Positions 1 through 6,326 of a stretch of DNA of 32,653 nt are shown one piece after another. A program made the position numbers and the translations under genes. The DNA is from Patescibacteria group bacterium (GTDB lineage: Bacteria; Patescibacteriota; Minisyncoccia; Phycocordibacterales; UBA2100). The notes under the pieces are model-generated. The model did not search any database. It worked only from the letters and a program-made list of their open reading frames with translations, and was not told the DNA's origin. Positions within the stretch are counted from its first letter, which is position 1. The number at the start of each line of letters is the position of its first letter. The stretch is taken from positions 1-32,653 of the forward strand of contig JAKFXQ010000012.1 of NCBI GenBank assembly GCA_021731295.1, written 5' to 3'.

Positions 1-366
1 GCGCCGCGCGGCGAATTGGTGCGCAATCTCATTCAAGCATTGTCGGAGAAGAACGCCGAGAAAGCGCTCGCTGCCATTGAACAGGCGGTCGCCGCGAATC
101 TCGACATGCGCACGCTCACGCGTCTTCTCATTCACCGCATGCGCGTCGTTCTTTTGATGCGCTATGCGCCGCCCATCGCAGACCAGCTTTCGAAAGAGCT
201 GGCCGAGGCAGACATCGCACTCGCTAAAGACATCATGAAGAATCCGGGCGTTACGTCCGAGACTCTTCGCGCACTCCTCAAGGCCTATGGCGAGATGGCA
301 TATTCTGCCGTCCAGCATGTGCCGCTAGAACTCGCAGTCATTGAATTGTGCGCACCGCAAACGTGA
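1..366 (+). CDS. dnaX: DNA polymerase III subunit gamma/tau, C-terminal fragment (gene truncated by window start)
   Basis: Reading frame open from base 1; C-terminal helical domain typical of DnaX (EKNAEKALAAIEQAVAANLDMRTLTRLLIHRMRVVLLMRYA... ELAVIELC). Confidence 0.7.
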   Translation, partial: APRGELVRNLIQALSEKNAEKALAAIEQAVAANLDMRTLTRLLIHRMRVVLLMRYAPPIADQLSKELAEADIALAKDIMKNPGVTSETLRALLKAYGEMAYSAVQHVPLELAVIELCAPQT

Positions 367-367
367 T

Positions 368-802
368 ATGCCGGACGTTGCGACACTGGCGCGCGAAGTT
401 CTGAACGATGCGTATCTGATGACCCTCGCAGTGAACGACGCACAGGGCCCTTGGGCCGCGCCGGTGATTTTCGTTACGGACAGCGACATGAAGCTGTACT
501 GGTTATCAAAACCGGAGACACGTCATTCGATGGCGATAGCGGCGAGCGGACACGTCGGTATTTCGATTGCCGCCGCGTGGAAGAAGGGAGAAGAGCGTGC
601 AGTGCAGATAGAGGCAGTCGCATCGAAAGTTGAAGGACAACTGTTTGAGCAGGAGAAAGCACTTCGCCTCAAAGTAGGCGATATGCCACCTGCCGTTGCC
701 GGCGAGACGACCACGGGTCATCTGTGGTACGTTGCGATGCCTAAGCGGGTAGAGCTCATCCACGAGAAGCATTTCGGGTGGGACCGGCAGAGGGTTTTAT
801 AA
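368..802 (+). CDS. Pyridoxamine 5'-phosphate oxidase-like (FMN-binding split barrel) family protein
   Basis: ATG at 368; LMTLAVNDAQGPWAAPVIFVTDSDMKLYWLSKPETRHSMAI is typical of the split-barrel family. Confidence 0.7.
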   Translation: MPDVATLAREVLNDAYLMTLAVNDAQGPWAAPVIFVTDSDMKLYWLSKPETRHSMAIAASGHVGISIAAAWKKGEERAVQIEAVASKVEGQLFEQEKALRLKVGDMPPAVAGETTTGHLWYVAMPKRVELIHEKHFGWDRQRVL

Positions 803-830
803 CGCCCAACACCCTGCTAGTATCTGCCGT

Positions 831-871
831 ATTGCCGGATCGTCCCTGGCCGAGCAGGCTAATGGTAGGTC
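831..871 (+). pseudogene. Partial tRNA 5'-half-like sequence (degenerate duplicate of the tRNA-Gln acceptor/D-arm)
   Basis: attgccggatcgt (831-843) and ctaatggtagg (859-869) match the tRNA at 892-904 and 905-915, but are separated by inserted ccctggccgagcagg; no anticodon arm follows. Confidence 0.5.
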
Positions 872-893
872 AGCAATACTTCTGTTTTCACAT

Positions 894-964
894 TGCCGGA
901 TCGTCTAATGGTAGGACTGGAGCCTTTGAAGCTCTCTATCTTGGTTCGAATCCAAGTCCGGCAG
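894..964 (+). tRNA. tRNA-Gln (anticodon TTG)
   Basis: Acceptor TGCCGGA/TCCGGCA; D-loop TAATGGTAGGA; anticodon arm GGAGC-CTTTGAA-GCTCT (anticodon TTG); T-arm TTGG-TTCGAAT-CCAA. Confidence 0.9.
947..964 (+). repeat. Copy 1 of tRNA 3'-end direct repeat (cgaatccaagtccggcag)
   Basis: Exact 18 bp match to 1914-1931; 17 bp match to 1121-1137. Confidence 0.9.
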
Positions 965-991
965 AAAATAACGGTAGTGATTTTCTGCCGG
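958..991. repeat. Perfect 12-bp inverted repeat anchored in the tRNA 3' end
   Basis: ccggcagaaaat (958-969) / attttctgccgg (980-991) with a 10-nt loop. Confidence 0.85.
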
Positions 992-1018
992 AAGCAGGAT
1001 GCCGGGGGCATACTGCGC

Positions 1019-1137
1019 CTTGGATTCGAAAAGTCGGAGCAGGGCTCCCGCTCACCAGAGCGGGAAGCGAGACTCGGCTGGAGAGCATTCTTGCGCGACG
1101 GCGCAAGAATGACTCGACAGGAATCCAAGTCCGGCAG
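1019..1137. other. Complex inverted-repeat / branched secondary-structure element ending in a tRNA 3'-end copy
   Basis: Outer stem cttggattc (1019-1027)/gaatccaag (1121-1129) enclosing hairpins cccgctc-acca-gagcggg and attcttgcgc-gacg-gcgcaagaat. Confidence 0.55.
1121..1137 (+). repeat. Copy 2 of tRNA 3'-end direct repeat
   Basis: gaatccaagtccggcag, 17/17 with tRNA-Gln 948-964; followed by cca. Confidence 0.85.
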
Positions 1138-1218
1138 CCAGCTTGAGACAGGTTCGGGCCGAGGACTATCGGAAGCAAGTAAATGTGGCAGTGGAGCTAG
1201 CAATCAAAAGTTGATATC

Positions 1219-1497
1219 ATGTTTCGTATGAAGACTTTCTGCGTAGCATATGACTTAAATTCGCCGTCGCAGGATTACGCGCGGTTAATCGAAGCCATTA
1301 AGTCATATGGGACATGGTGGCATCATCTGGACTCAGCGTGGTTCATTAAAAGCCCACACAGTGCTAGCGAAATACGAGATCACCTCGGTAGGCTGATAGA
1401 TTCGAATGACGAACTCCTTGTGTTCGAAGTGGGCACTCACTGGGCTGGTAAAGGATTTGAGCAAAAGGGATATGACTGGCTGAAGAGCAATTGGTGA
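1219..1497 (+). CDS. SinR-like / Cas2-like-fold small protein
   Basis: MKTFCVAYDLNSPSQDYARLIEAIKSYGTWWHHLDSAWFIKS...: the YDLN start and W-x-x-LDS-x-W signature of the SinR-annotated small-protein family. True start may be the Met at 1228. Confidence 0.65.
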   Translation: MFRMKTFCVAYDLNSPSQDYARLIEAIKSYGTWWHHLDSAWFIKSPHSASEIRDHLGRLIDSNDELLVFEVGTHWAGKGFEQKGYDWLKSNW

Positions 1498-1498
1498 T

Positions 1499-1834
1499 AT
1501 GGACATCCTCACACTTTTTACAATCATTGTCTCAGTGGTATCGATAGTGCTAGCAATTGTGGCAATTGTTTTGTCGATTCTATTTTATCGCTGGAGTGTT
1601 GAGTCCAATAGACAAATTGTTGCTGCTGCCGCGAAGATAGATAGTAATACCGAACGGTTGCAAGAGTTATTTAACAAATTTTATTCGGACACATTCGGGA
1701 TAATGAAGGCGGCATTCAATGCACTACAACGTAAAGCGTTAAATGAAGAGAATACTGATTCTGCAAGCGAAAAAACAGAACCGAGTCCTACTGTTACCGA
1801 CGAGGGAGCTCGCGCGCCAGCAAATTCAAATTAA
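1499..1834 (+). CDS. Small membrane protein with N-terminal TM helix and charged/coiled-coil tail
   Basis: MDILTLFTIIVSVVSIVLAIVAIVLSILFYRWSVESNRQIVAAAAKIDSNTERLQELFNKF; begins immediately after the stop of the previous ORF. Confidence 0.6.
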   Translation: MDILTLFTIIVSVVSIVLAIVAIVLSILFYRWSVESNRQIVAAAAKIDSNTERLQELFNKFYSDTFGIMKAAFNALQRKALNEENTDSASEKTEPSPTVTDEGARAPANSN

Positions 1835-1913
1835 CTCAAGTATCATTCCGAATGAACGTCGCGATGATAAAATGGCACCAGAAAACCCGTATGGGGCTTG
1901 ACGGAAGATTATC

Positions 1914-1931
1914 CGAATCCAAGTCCGGCAG
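1914..1931 (+). repeat. Copy 3 of tRNA 3'-end direct repeat
   Basis: cgaatccaagtccggcag, 18/18 with tRNA-Gln 947-964. Confidence 0.9.
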
Positions 1932-1955
1932 CAGCGAAGTTGTTACAATTGTCGT

Positions 1956-2240
1956 ATGAAAGCGACACGAGCATCAGACGTTCAAGCATTCAAGGACATT
2001 CCCAACATTGGCCCAGCGATGGTGCGCGATTTTGCACGCTTGGGACTCAAAACGCCGCAGGACCTGAAGAAGCAGGACGCTTTCACTTTGTATAAAAAGA
2101 CGTGTCGTGTAAGCGGCGTGCGCCAAGATCCGTGCGTGCTTGATACGTACATGGCCGCAGTGGATTTTATGAACGGAGCACCGCCGCATCCCTGGTGGCA
2201 CTACACAAAGGAAAGAAAGCGACAGTATCCTAATATCTAG
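1956..2240 (+). CDS. Helix-hairpin-helix 'pathogenicity locus' (Cdd1-like) family protein
   Basis: DVQAFKDIPNIGPAMVRDFARLGLKTPQDLKKQDAFTLYKKTC...DPCVLDTYMAAVDFMNG...WWHYTKERK. Confidence 0.8.
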   Translation: MKATRASDVQAFKDIPNIGPAMVRDFARLGLKTPQDLKKQDAFTLYKKTCRVSGVRQDPCVLDTYMAAVDFMNGAPPHPWWHYTKERKRQYPNI

Positions 2241-2243
2241 CAT

Positions 2244-2546
2244 ATGCTCCGAAGACTCATCGCTCACTACCGACACAACCCGCAGGGTTACTGGTTCAAG
2301 CGTGCGCCCTTTGGCTGGGGCTGGGTTCCTGTAACGTGGCAGGGCTTGCTCGTGACCCTTTCTTCTGTTGCCCTTATCGCAGGCGGCATCTACGTTGGTG
2401 AGACTGATGACGCTCCGGGTGCGGCACTCTTAGGCATAGTGCTCGGTGCACTGCTCACGTATTGGTTTGGCACTAGGAAGGGAGAGAAAGCGTGTTTTCA
2501 GTGGGGATTACCGGACGAGACGCCAACACGTACGCCGGCGCCATGA
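2244..2546 (+). CDS. Small membrane protein, unknown function
   Basis: Open frame with two hydrophobic segments; begins just after the upstream stop. Confidence 0.5.
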   Translation: MLRRLIAHYRHNPQGYWFKRAPFGWGWVPVTWQGLLVTLSSVALIAGGIYVGETDDAPGAALLGIVLGALLTYWFGTRKGEKACFQWGLPDETPTRTPAP

Positions 2547-2580
2547 TACGCTTACCGCATTAGCCACCAGCATCAACCAT

Positions 2581-2646
2581 ATGGGAAAAGGGAATAACGC
2601 CCAGAGAAAGGAGAAGAAGAAGCCGAAGAAGGATAAAAAGAAATAG
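2581..2646 (+). CDS. 21-aa Lys-rich micro-ORF (MGKGNNAQRKEKKKPKKDKKK)
   Basis: ATG with complete short frame ending just before a strong terminator; composition strongly biased to Lys. Confidence 0.4.
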   Translation: MGKGNNAQRKEKKKPKKDKKK

Positions 2647-2650
2647 TCAC

Positions 2651-2672
2651 GAGCGCCCCTTACGGGGCGCTC
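2651..2672 (+). terminator. Intergenic terminator-like hairpin
   Basis: gagcgcccc-ttac-ggggcgctc, perfect 9-bp stem. Confidence 0.7.
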
Positions 2673-2734
2673 TTCAGTCACGCGGTATTCTGGCGGTTCA
2701 CAAAACGCCATATCTAAGCTACTCTGTCCAACTT

Positions 2735-4186
2735 ATGGGCCGAGAAGAAGCACTCGTCCGATTTGAGGACGTGTCATTTGAATACAGTCGTGCCAAACCC
2801 ATCCTCGATGAGGTGAATTTCGCTGTGCGTCGTGGCATCAAGCTCGCCATCATGGGTCAGAACGGCGCAGGGAAGAGCACGATTCTTTCACTCATCACCG
2901 GTGAACATATGCCGGAGAGTGGTTCTATCCACACACAGGCGCGGCTCTCCATCGCGATTGCGCGGCAGGTAATCCCGCGCGACGAGCTCGACCTCACGGT
3001 GCGCGAGTTCTTTGAGAAGTGCTTTTCAGACAAGGTGTACGACATTGACCCGCGAATCGATGAAGCGCTCGAGGTGGTGAACCTCAAAGCCCCGCATGAC
3101 CGGATAGTGCGCTCGTTCTCCGGCGGCCAGCAGGCGCGCCTTCTCCTTGCATCCGCGCTCATTCAGATTCCTGATTTACTGCTCCTCGACGAGCCGACCA
3201 ACAACCTCGATGCCGCAGGTATCGAGCACCTCACGAAGTTTCTGAAGGATTACGACAAGACGGTGATGGTGATTTCGCACGATGCGGAGTTCCTCAATGC
3301 GTTTACGCACGGCGTGCTGTACCTCGACGTGCACACCCGCAAAGTCGAGCAATACCCGGGCAACTACAACAATGTCCTGAAAGACATCGCTGCACGCATC
3401 GAGTCGGAGAACCGGAAGAATGCGCAGCTTGAGAAGGAGATACAGCGAAACAAGGACAAGGCGAACTTCTTTGGCCAGAAAGGCGGCAAGATGCGTGTCA
3501 TCGCGAAAAAGATGCGCGACAAGGTGGAAGAGATGGAAGAAGAGATTGTGGACGTGCGCCAAGAGGACCGTACTATCCGTGAGTTCTCCATTCCCGTCCA
3601 ACCTGACTTGCCAACGGAAGTCATGACCATCACCTCGTTCAGCATCATCAAGGACCACAAGCCGAAGAAGCAGAAGGCGTCACTGCGCCTCAAGAAGAAC
3701 CAGCACCTTCTTCTCAAGGGCCCGAACGGCATCGGCAAATCAACGCTGTTACAGTCAATCGTGGATAAGACCGCAGAAGGTGTAGTCATTGCGCCAGATG
3801 TGCGCATTGGGTACTACCGTCAAGATTTCTCAACTCTCGATTTCGAGCAGACGGTGTTCGAGTCCCTGATGACAATTATGAAAGTGAAGGACGAGGAGCG
3901 CATGCGCCGCGTGGCGGCTGGGTTCTTGCTTAGCGCAGAGGTAATGAAGACGCGCGTCGGCGCGCTCTCTGAGGGGCAGAAGGGACTTTTGGCGTTTGCT
4001 CGCTTGGTGCTGTGGGAACCTGGTCTCTTGATACTCGACGAGCCGACGAACCATATAAACTTCCGCCACATACCGGTCATTGCGAAAGCACTCCATGAGT
4101 ACAAAGGGCCGCTCATTCTTGTTTCGCACGTACCCGAGTTCGTCGCCCAAGTACGCATAGACGAAACGTTAGAGTTGGGGGCGTAG
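2735..4186 (+). CDS. ABC-F family ATP-binding protein (two ABC domains)
   Basis: Walker A GQNGAGKST and GPNGIGKST; SFSGGQQARLLLASALIQIPDLLLLDEPTNNLD; second-site LSEGQKGLLAFARLVLWEPGLLILDEPTNH; charged linker between domains. Confidence 0.93.
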   Translation: MGREEALVRFEDVSFEYSRAKPILDEVNFAVRRGIKLAIMGQNGAGKSTILSLITGEHMPESGSIHTQARLSIAIARQVIPRDELDLTVREFFEKCFSDKVYDIDPRIDEALEVVNLKAPHDRIVRSFSGGQQARLLLASALIQIPDLLLLDEPTNNLDAAGIEHLTKFLKDYDKTVMVISHDAEFLNAFTHGVLYLDVHTRKVEQYPGNYNNVLKDIAARIESENRKNAQLEKEIQRNKDKANFFGQKGGKMRVIAKKMRDKVEEMEEEIVDVRQEDRTIREFSIPVQPDLPTEVMTITSFSIIKDHKPKKQKASLRLKKNQHLLLKGPNGIGKSTLLQSIVDKTAEGVVIAPDVRIGYYRQDFSTLDFEQTVFESLMTIMKVKDEERMRRVAAGFLLSAEVMKTRVGALSEGQKGLLAFARLVLWEPGLLILDEPTNHINFRHIPVIAKALHEYKGPLILVSHVPEFVAQVRIDETLELGA

Positions 4187-4212
4187 AAGTACACTCGCGT
4201 TATAATGGCCCG

Positions 4213-4821
4213 ATGTTCGACAGTGTCATCTGGGGACTTTCCGTCGCTCACTGGCTTGTAGTTGTTTCAGCGCTCATAAGCCTTAGCGGGGCAGTCGCGT
4301 ATATCCGCGACATGCGTCGTGGAACATCCAAACCTAATCTCGTCTCGTGGGGACTGTGGGCATTTGCGCCGCTTATTGCCACAGGTGCCGCGCTATCGAT
4401 TAATGCCGACCATTGGTCTACGGTGCGCATTTTCATGGCCGGTTTCGGGCCGCTGCTGGTGTTCAGCGCGGCGTTTCTTGTAAAGCAGGGATACTGGAAG
4501 CTCACGGGATTCGATTATGGATGTGGCGCGCTCTCACTTGTCGCGCTTGCGGCGTGGCTCGTGGCCGACTCTCCGGTGCTTGCCATATTACTCGCAGCAA
4601 TCGCGGACCTGCTGGCAACGTTACCAACCGTCATCAAGGCTTGGAAACATCCCGAAACCGAAACGCTCTACACATATTTCGTCGGGCTCTTCACGGCGAG
4701 CATAGTCATTCCGGCTATTCCTGTATGGAACATTGAAAATGCGGCATTCCAGGTCTACCTGCTCGTCGCAAATCTAGCACTATTCGGTGTCGTACTACGC
4801 GGGTACTTGCGACGGTCATGA
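4213..4821 (+). CDS. Polytopic membrane protein, unknown function (PQ-loop-like character)
   Basis: About 6-7 hydrophobic segments; motif SKPNLVSWGLWAFAPLIA. Confidence 0.65.
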   Translation: MFDSVIWGLSVAHWLVVVSALISLSGAVAYIRDMRRGTSKPNLVSWGLWAFAPLIATGAALSINADHWSTVRIFMAGFGPLLVFSAAFLVKQGYWKLTGFDYGCGALSLVALAAWLVADSPVLAILLAAIADLLATLPTVIKAWKHPETETLYTYFVGLFTASIVIPAIPVWNIENAAFQVYLLVANLALFGVVLRGYLRRS

Positions 4822-4824
4822 GCC

Positions 4825-5427
4825 ATGTACTTCGTTTACATACTCCAGTGCGCGGATAAGAGTCTCTACACCGGAATCACAACGGACTTGAAGCGTCGGC
4901 TTGATGAGCACAAGCGTGGTGAAGGCGCTCGGTACACGCGCGCGAAGGAAGCGGTGCGCGTGGTCTATTCGGAAAAAGTGGCCAATAGAAGTGAGGCGTC
5001 GAAGCGTGAGGCGCAGATTAAGAAGTTGTCGCGTGAGAAGAAGTTGGAACTCGTACGTTCTGCCGCAGGGAGCGCTCGTCCAAATGAAAAGTCGCACACA
5101 GCAGCAATGAAGTCCTTTAGCGACCGTGTTGTTGAGATAGCACTTTCCATCCCGCGCGGGCGTGTGAGTACCTACGGCGCGATAGCTCGTGCCGCCGGTG
5201 GTGGCGGTATGGCCGCGCGCAGCATCACCGCAATACTTGGTAAAGCACACGACAGGGGCGTGCGCGACATTCCGTATCATCGCATCGTCTACAGCGACGG
5301 AAGCATCTGGGTAAACGAAGACCGCCGAACGAAGCGCTTGGCGTTGTACAAGAAAGAGGGAATCAAAGTAGATTCACGAGACCGTATCGTGGATTTTCGA
5401 GACAAGCTGCTCGATTTCCGCGAGTAG
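4825..5427 (+). CDS. Fusion: GIY-YIG nuclease domain + alkyltransferase-like (ATL/MGMT C-terminal) DNA-binding domain
   Basis: N-terminus MYFVYILQCADKSLYTGITTDLKRRLDEHKRG (GIY-YIG/URI); C-terminus ALSIPRGRVSTYGAIARAAGGGGMAARSITAILGKAHDRGVRDIPYHRIVYSDGSIW (MGMT-like helix-turn-helix, PCHR replaced by PYHR). Confidence 0.88.
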   Translation: MYFVYILQCADKSLYTGITTDLKRRLDEHKRGEGARYTRAKEAVRVVYSEKVANRSEASKREAQIKKLSREKKLELVRSAAGSARPNEKSHTAAMKSFSDRVVEIALSIPRGRVSTYGAIARAAGGGGMAARSITAILGKAHDRGVRDIPYHRIVYSDGSIWVNEDRRTKRLALYKKEGIKVDSRDRIVDFRDKLLDFRE

Positions 5428-5452
5428 CGCGAGGTGCGGTAAGATACACACC

Positions 5453-5920
5453 ATGAATCCGCTCATCAAAATTGTTCCGCCACTCTGGATGACTGCACTC
5501 ATAGTCGCAGGAATCGTGACACATTTGTATGTGCCGAGTCTCCGCGCGTTCGACATCGTTGTTCCAACAGTGAGCACCATCGTTGCCGTCGCACTTCTCA
5601 TGTTGGGGCAAATACTCATCCTGCGTTCGAGCTATCTGTTTGCAAGGGAAAAGACCGAGATACTGCCAGCTTCAGAGAAGAACAGTGCCCTTGTCACGGA
5701 GGGGCCGTACCGCTTCACACGAAACCCAATGTATCTCGGACTCGTCGCAAGCGTACTTGGTTTCGCTGTCTACTTTGGCACATTGCCACTCTTTGTTTCT
5801 GCGGTTGTATTGTTCCTCATTCTGAATACGCTTTTTATACCGTTCGAAGAAGCCAAGATGCGCCGCCAGTTTGGTGCCGAGTACGATGCGTACGTAGCTC
5901 GCGTGCGTCGCTGGATATAG
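5453..5920 (+). CDS. Isoprenylcysteine carboxyl methyltransferase / phospholipid methyltransferase-like membrane protein
   Basis: GPYRFTRNPMYLGLV and FEEAKMRRQFGAEYDAYVARVRRWI signatures. Confidence 0.85.
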   Translation: MNPLIKIVPPLWMTALIVAGIVTHLYVPSLRAFDIVVPTVSTIVAVALLMLGQILILRSSYLFAREKTEILPASEKNSALVTEGPYRFTRNPMYLGLVASVLGFAVYFGTLPLFVSAVVLFLILNTLFIPFEEAKMRRQFGAEYDAYVARVRRWI

Positions 5921-5936
5921 GGTATCCTACTGACAT

Positions 5937-6326
5937 ATGGCGCCTGACATCCGTAAGTACCACAAAGCGTTGAAGGGCGAGACAAAGAACATTTGTGACG
6001 TGCTCGCAAAAGAGATTGCCGGCGTCCTCACGAAAGCCGAATCAAAAGTGTGGCATGGGCATCCAGTATGGTTTTTAGAAGGGAATCCTATTGTCGGCTA
6101 TGCACCGCGGAAGAAAGGCGTGACGCTGTTGTTCTGGAGCGGTCAGTCGTTCACGACGCCGGGTCTGAAAAAAGAAGGCTCGTTCAAGGCTGCACAAGCA
6201 GTGTATGTGACAGCTGTGGACGTGAAGGCGACACTCTTGCGCAAGTGGCTCCGCGAATCCAAAAAAGTGCAGTGGAACTACAAAGACATAGTTAAGAACA
6301 AAGGGAAGTTGAGTCGCTTGCCGTAA
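5937..6326 (+). CDS. DUF1801-like domain protein
   Basis: KAESKVWHGHPVWFLEGNPIVGYAPRKKGVTLLFWSGQSF pattern. Confidence 0.65.
   Translation: MAPDIRKYHKALKGETKNICDVLAKEIAGVLTKAESKVWHGHPVWFLEGNPIVGYAPRKKGVTLLFWSGQSFTTPGLKKEGSFKAAQAVYVTAVDVKATLLRKWLRESKKVQWNYKDIVKNKGKLSRLP

Follow-up and report, generated by a model that had tools for sequence, protein, structure and literature searches.

Closed stems serve as attachment sites in integrons, where they form the attC sites, and in the Vibrio phage CTX. In Escherichia coli, the tyrT/tyrV tRNA genes are followed by rtT repeats (Rfam RF00391, rttR), tandem 178-bp units in which the tRNA tail recurs both inverted (at +59, +237, and +415) and directly, including CCA (at +156, +334, and +512). 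An intact tRNA gene accompanied by a duplicated tail is a trace of site-specific integration, and the tRNA islands given as examples measure about 9–23 kb (PMC9897764).

Here, we describe a locus of a tiny uncultured bacterium, a relative of the Kaiserbacteria, in which a tRNA-Gln gene is followed by direct and inverted copies of its own tail. The window, meaning the whole stretch of DNA analyzed, comprises 32,653 nucleotides. The tRNA gene, its tail copies, and the parts of the two segments behind it all lie on the forward (+) strand.

Results

The tRNA-Gln(TTG) gene was located by ARAGORN at 893–965, with no encoded CCA, and is placed at 894–964 by the Rfam model RF00005. Its final 18 bases (CGAATCCAAGTCCGGCAG; 947–964, tail copy 1 or R) recur exactly at 1914–1931 (tail copy 3, a sequence match without CCA) and with 17 of 18 positions matching at 1120–1137 (tail copy 2 or R'), where CCA follows. 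These data confirmed the repeat on which the original prediction had been built, including a middle copy at about 1121–1137. A chance repeat was ruled out as the source of the copies, because only 0.03 matches to the 18-mer were expected in shuffled sequence (up to three mismatches), and in the whole 998-kb assembly a 17-mer of the tail (up to two mismatches) was found at these three sites and at the end of the tRNA-Gln(CTG) gene only. Occurrence of the 18-mer at many unrelated places, which would have spoken against integration, was thus not observed.

R' would represent the displaced ancestral 3' end of the tRNA. The CCA and trailer behind it (GCTTGAGACAGGTTCGGGCCGAGGA, 1138–1165) resemble the sequence directly 3' of unoccupied tRNA-Gln genes in other Paceibacteria. 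A search of relatives for empty sites had been proposed as a check, and such sites were found in other species (not strains): in Kaiser-, Zambryski-, and Taylorbacteria, the unoccupied tRNA-Gln is followed directly by CCA and a trailer like that at 1138–1165. At occupied Gln loci, the tail copy has the CCA and the tRNA lacks it in 7 of 11 cases, a partly biased count, as the set of loci from L100 upward was retrieved by its CCA pattern. A general loss of the encoded CCA upon insertion was rejected, as no association was detected across all tRNAs (p = 1.0 and 0.14) and the examples are confined to Gln; such loss occurs often in these genomes, with no tie to units.

Some further features of the region were noted. 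The sequence 3' of the tRNA-Gln CCA (CCAGYTTGAG..AGGTTC..CCGAGGAG) is found at 1138–1165 of the window and at loci L106, L107, L160, L161, and L124, in different lineages and ahead of different genes, and looks like a common leader with a ribosome-binding site. Just upstream of the tRNA-Gln gene, at 832–876, lies a tRNA-Gln 5' fragment with a 14-nt hairpin insert (TTGCCGGATCGTC-CCTGGCCGAGCAGG-CTAATGGTAGG), and a congener (G012, locus L286) has a near-identical fragment at the end of its contig C36. Elsewhere in the genome, degenerate tRNA copies without 5' parts lie shortly 3' of tRNA-Ala(CGC), tRNA-Thr(GGT), and tRNA-Phe (L091, L088, and L077, respectively).

Between the tRNA and R' lies a noncoding structured unit of 172 bp (966–1137), the tail copies being 173 bp apart. 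The 3' strand of the tRNA and the start of the unit (TCCGGCAGAAAAT/ATTTTCTGCCGGA, inverted repeat I1) can form a hairpin at 957–992, which includes TGCCGGA (986–992), a copy of the acceptor 5' strand of the tRNA that is complementary to the tail at 1130–1136. A second hairpin is predicted at 994–1016, between this acceptor mimic and an inverted T-arm, from the pairing of GCAG..ATGCC with GGCAT..CTGC and from the fold. The inverted copy of the tRNA T-arm (R'', CTTGGATTCGAA, 1019–1030) is a perfect inverted repeat with 945–956; it pairs with R' and so closes a three-way junction with helices P2 (1032–1074) and P3 (1078–1120, with one bulged base on the 3' strand). The order within the unit is therefore inverted tRNA tail, three-way-junction core, and direct tail copy carrying CCA. 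The same layout was found 3' of tRNA-Gln in many relatives, two loci (L014 and L018) having a tandem pair.

We built a covariance model, R1, on seven units of the same genome, leaving out the unit in the window, and this model found the window unit at 1024–1127 with 50.1 bits (E = 4.3e-10 in 611 kb). R1 counts 12 units in the genome, and structured units lie there also 3' of tRNA-Ser, Asp, Arg, Glu, Ile, Lys, Tyr, and others. Matches were obtained in 51 of 60 genomes of the order, with up to 34 copies per genome, and in 29 of 290 genomes of the phylum. Among 100 distinct units, all 30 core pairs had changes on both sides, 94.4% of core cells were paired (68.0% when shuffled), and core covariation reached 0.594 (0.157 after shuffling, and no more than 0.088 with slid partners), although the alignment was fitted to the model and leans toward structure. 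In the first, unfitted MAFFT alignment of eight sequences, 22 of the 30 pairs had already changed on both sides. The closing stem R''/R' also covaries (70.6% versus 47.6%). G-U pairs outnumbered A-C pairs (74 versus 5, and 22 versus 7), indicating that the tRNA-sense strand is the folding strand; such folding would fit an RNA or one DNA strand. No Rfam family was detected over the unit at gathering or relaxed thresholds, no related DNA was found in phages, and a literature search on such elements in Patescibacteria returned nothing. The units form a large, structured, and apparently undescribed family.

The units are closely tied to tRNA genes. Just 3' of a tRNA and on its strand lie 85 of the 100 aligned units, about 15% having no detected tRNA ahead. 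Across 800 kb of chromosome in genome G027, 13 of 18 units were located 29–204 nt 3' of a tRNA and on its strand, a zone that covers 1.1% of strand-positions, and elsewhere in the phylum six of seven checked loci had the unit 3' of a tRNA. The mean run shared by the tail copy with its local tRNA was 11.4, compared with 5.2 for other isotypes. In one class of units, the tail copy begins at the same position of the tRNA T-loop and is about 12–27 nt long; the other class (short “class II” units) has only a short stem or a few bases in common with the tRNA end. In G000, a unit lies 3' of topA (L232:3762–3862), with a stem that is not tRNA-derived; judged by the upstream sequence, the same apparently holds for a unit in G024 (L233:2184–2286).

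Cores cluster by genome and not by tRNA. The most similar core is often one at another tRNA in the same genome, as with the Lys and Ile units of one genome, whose cores are 92% alike, and the nearest core was in the same genome for 23 of 100 units against 7 expected (maximum of 17 in 500 shuffles). Occupancy also differs within conserved gene order, where tRNA-Cys, Leu-tag, Ile-gat, His, and Leu-gag are unit-free here and occupied in a congener, the relatives compared being other species and the genomes mostly metagenome-assembled. The tRNA-Cys gene, for example, is empty in this genome and occupied in G024 ahead of the same gene (81% identity).

Behind the structured unit, a second segment of 794 bp (1138–1931) carries genes and is closed by tail copy 3. 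It holds an ORF for a 92-aa protein with a Cas2-like ferredoxin fold (1219–1497) and one for a 111-aa membrane protein with weak SLATT-like similarity (1499–1834, E = 3e-4). The two-gene stretch is AT-rich: its GC content is 43.7% (54.7% in the window), which ranks 5 among 1602 stretches of equal length. It contains no integrase, and on both points the original prediction was correct. That prediction had, however, placed the two-gene cassette in the foreground and taken 966–1137 as a spacer. The tail-bracketed segment stands, but the main feature of the locus is 966–1137.

The model of the 92-aa protein had a pLDDT of 73, and its best PDB matches were Cas2 proteins (E = 2e-4, TM of about 0.6). 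Neither Cas1 nor a CRISPR array was recognized beside the gene among the ORFs listed for 1–6000. The Cas2-fold protein is sporadic, occurring in 5 of 146 other genomes of the order, and some homologues lie beside defense-type genes. Its closest homologue found (L271:121–1776) has a CD-NTase-like gene and a LexA-like regulator next to it, a defense-type neighborhood. A fixed partnership of this gene with tRNAs was rejected, as homologues elsewhere are not beside tRNAs.

A search of 1138–1931 with R1 found no structured core. A cargo version from Taylorbacteria (L161) reads tRNA-Gln, CCA, trailer, a P-loop kinase-like gene, core (E = 3e-9), and tail copy, so that the core sits at the right end of the cargo; this right-end folded site is absent from the gene segment of the window. 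The 794-bp segment is most readily seen as an older insertion that would have lost its core or never had one. At two other loci (L104:591–980 and L016), small GIY-YIG nuclease genes lie between tRNA-Gln and a tail copy, as a possible trans-acting nuclease or as cargo. An ORF at 4825–5427 of the window appears by eye to fuse a GIY-YIG nuclease domain with an alkyltransferase-like domain.

A genome search for a tyrosine recombinase, also proposed originally, did find one, but this sole resident enzyme is Xer-like, chromosomal, and outside the element. The Xer-like enzyme is present as one copy in most genomes, regardless of unit number. We rejected a link of unit number to either tyrosine recombinases (rho = −0.07) or Y1 transposases (rho = 0.25, p = 0.054), neither of which tracks the units; the genome has no Y1 transposase, and G037 encodes five tyrosine recombinases and has no unit. 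With regard to integrons, no GTTRRRY box was found in 966–1140 (the RYYYAAC/GTTRRRY test for attC) and no integron integrase in the genome, the Xer-like recombinase scoring 132 bits with TIGR02249 against a cutoff of 265.

We also compared the units with rtT, whose layout we verified directly on the E. coli locus. RF00391 scores 133–138 bits in E. coli and had no match in this genome or at the tRNA-Gln loci of 11 relatives; among 14 control genomes, it matched E. coli only. R1, in turn, had no match on the E. coli rtT locus. A literature search on rtT found nothing specific.

Discussion

We propose, with a probability of about 0.6 that covers both identity and insertion, that 966–1137 belongs to a family of small elements inserting at tRNA tails and that two insertions are stacked at the tRNA-Gln 3' end, which retains the two tail-bracketed insertions originally predicted. 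Insertion is well supported by the conserved fold, the duplication of the tail, the syntenic presence or absence of units, and the apparent movement of cores between tRNAs. The element would insert at the tRNA tail, duplicate it, and leave the tRNA intact; in this locus, the ancestral tail, CCA and trailer included, would have been shifted to 1121–1165 by the unit at 966–1137.

The moving form could be a single folded strand of tRNA sense, with the duplex of the tRNA tail re-created by its closing stem R''/R'. A circular form would have a single tail copy, which would pair with the inverted arm in one closed stem equal to that duplex, and the excised 966–1137 would be expected to have the junction GACTCGACAG-GAATCCAAGTCCGGCAG-AAAATAACGG. 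A tyrosine recombinase acting in trans might then join the folded unit to the tRNA tail, a step that we put forward tentatively and regard as rather doubtful. Versions with genes would have their cargo to the left of this same core, which is the arrangement at L161. At its broadest, the model would describe an integron-like system of Patescibacteria anchored at the tRNA tail, in which a recombinase acting in trans, perhaps the chromosomal Xer, inserts folded single-strand cassettes into many tRNA genes and removes them again, whether or not the cassettes carry genes; we consider this version unlikely.

Tail insertion fits less well with the few units that are not behind a tRNA, such as those behind topA, with the few bases that short class II units have in common with the tRNA, with the lack of an enzyme linked to unit number, and with a 794-bp segment that has no core of its own. 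The main rival remains a functional RNA domain in the 3' trailer of the tRNA, because rtT is annotated as RNA (rttR) and has the same layout. A read-through transcript would fold into the junction, with R'' pairing with the tRNA tail or R' and a role in termination, processing, or regulation by RNA, and the tail copies would have arisen by duplication and been kept by selection. The sense-strand G-U preference, a conserved G-U pair and bulge, the fixed position and orientation behind tRNAs, and the unit that two species appear to have in common behind topA are all compatible with such an RNA. Selection on a trailer would, however, account poorly for presence and absence at syntenic tRNAs, for the small overlap between the unit-bearing tRNAs of G000 and G027, and for cores that group by genome and not by tRNA. 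In addition, the spacer looks like a terminator, with runs of A and T, in 24 of 42 cases, and most such units would go untranscribed. We judge the RNA domain to be unlikely.

Both remaining explanations derive the tail copies from other events. Ordinary integrase-carrying tRNA islands could have been lost, leaving tail fragments and an arm of the attachment site; such islands typically leave displaced tail fragments behind (PMC9897764), and low-GC accessory genes do lie between the copies. However, a covarying fold would not be maintained in dozens of remnant copies, and the number of tyrosine recombinases does not follow that of the units, as the case of G037 illustrates, which makes this origin improbable. 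Local tandem duplication with palindrome correction could instead have produced the direct and inverted copies with no mobility at all, in agreement with R'' being complementary to the tRNA tail also in units with a short R' and with the partial tRNA copies behind other tRNAs here. Homologous cores behind unrelated tRNAs, among them the closely similar Lys and Ile cores, disfavor this explanation, which we hold to be very improbable.

Irrespective of mechanism, most genomes in this order of ultra-small bacteria contain a covarying, strand-specific structured element that has no Rfam family. A single genome can have up to dozens of copies, and the element is scattered in the phylum. If mobile, the units would be among the smallest that integrate site-specifically and would show how streamlined symbionts gain defense-type genes at tRNA tails. 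If they act as RNA instead, they would provide a broad, testable counterpart for the little-understood rtT layout of E. coli.

Among known systems, REP elements with RAYT transposases are likewise short, structured, noncoding repeats present in many copies per genome; in contrast to them, the units described here sit behind tRNAs with tail duplication, in a genome devoid of Y1 transposases. tRNA-integrated genomic islands, ICEs, and tycheposons share the intact tRNA at one end, the displaced 3' fragment at the other, and presence or absence between genomes, whereas our units are 0.1–0.2 kb long, contain no integrase, and have a folded core beside the fragment. Integron attC cassettes are similar in layout, with cargo followed by a folded right-end site, stacking at one anchor, and no recombinase in the unit; here, however, conservation is of the top (tRNA-sense) strand, and the arms agree in sequence with the local tRNA. 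Like the units, the rtT repeats of E. coli have the tail both directly and inverted behind a tRNA, but the core is not common to the two, and the units here lie behind many isotypes, are gained and lost between species, and in one version carry a gene.
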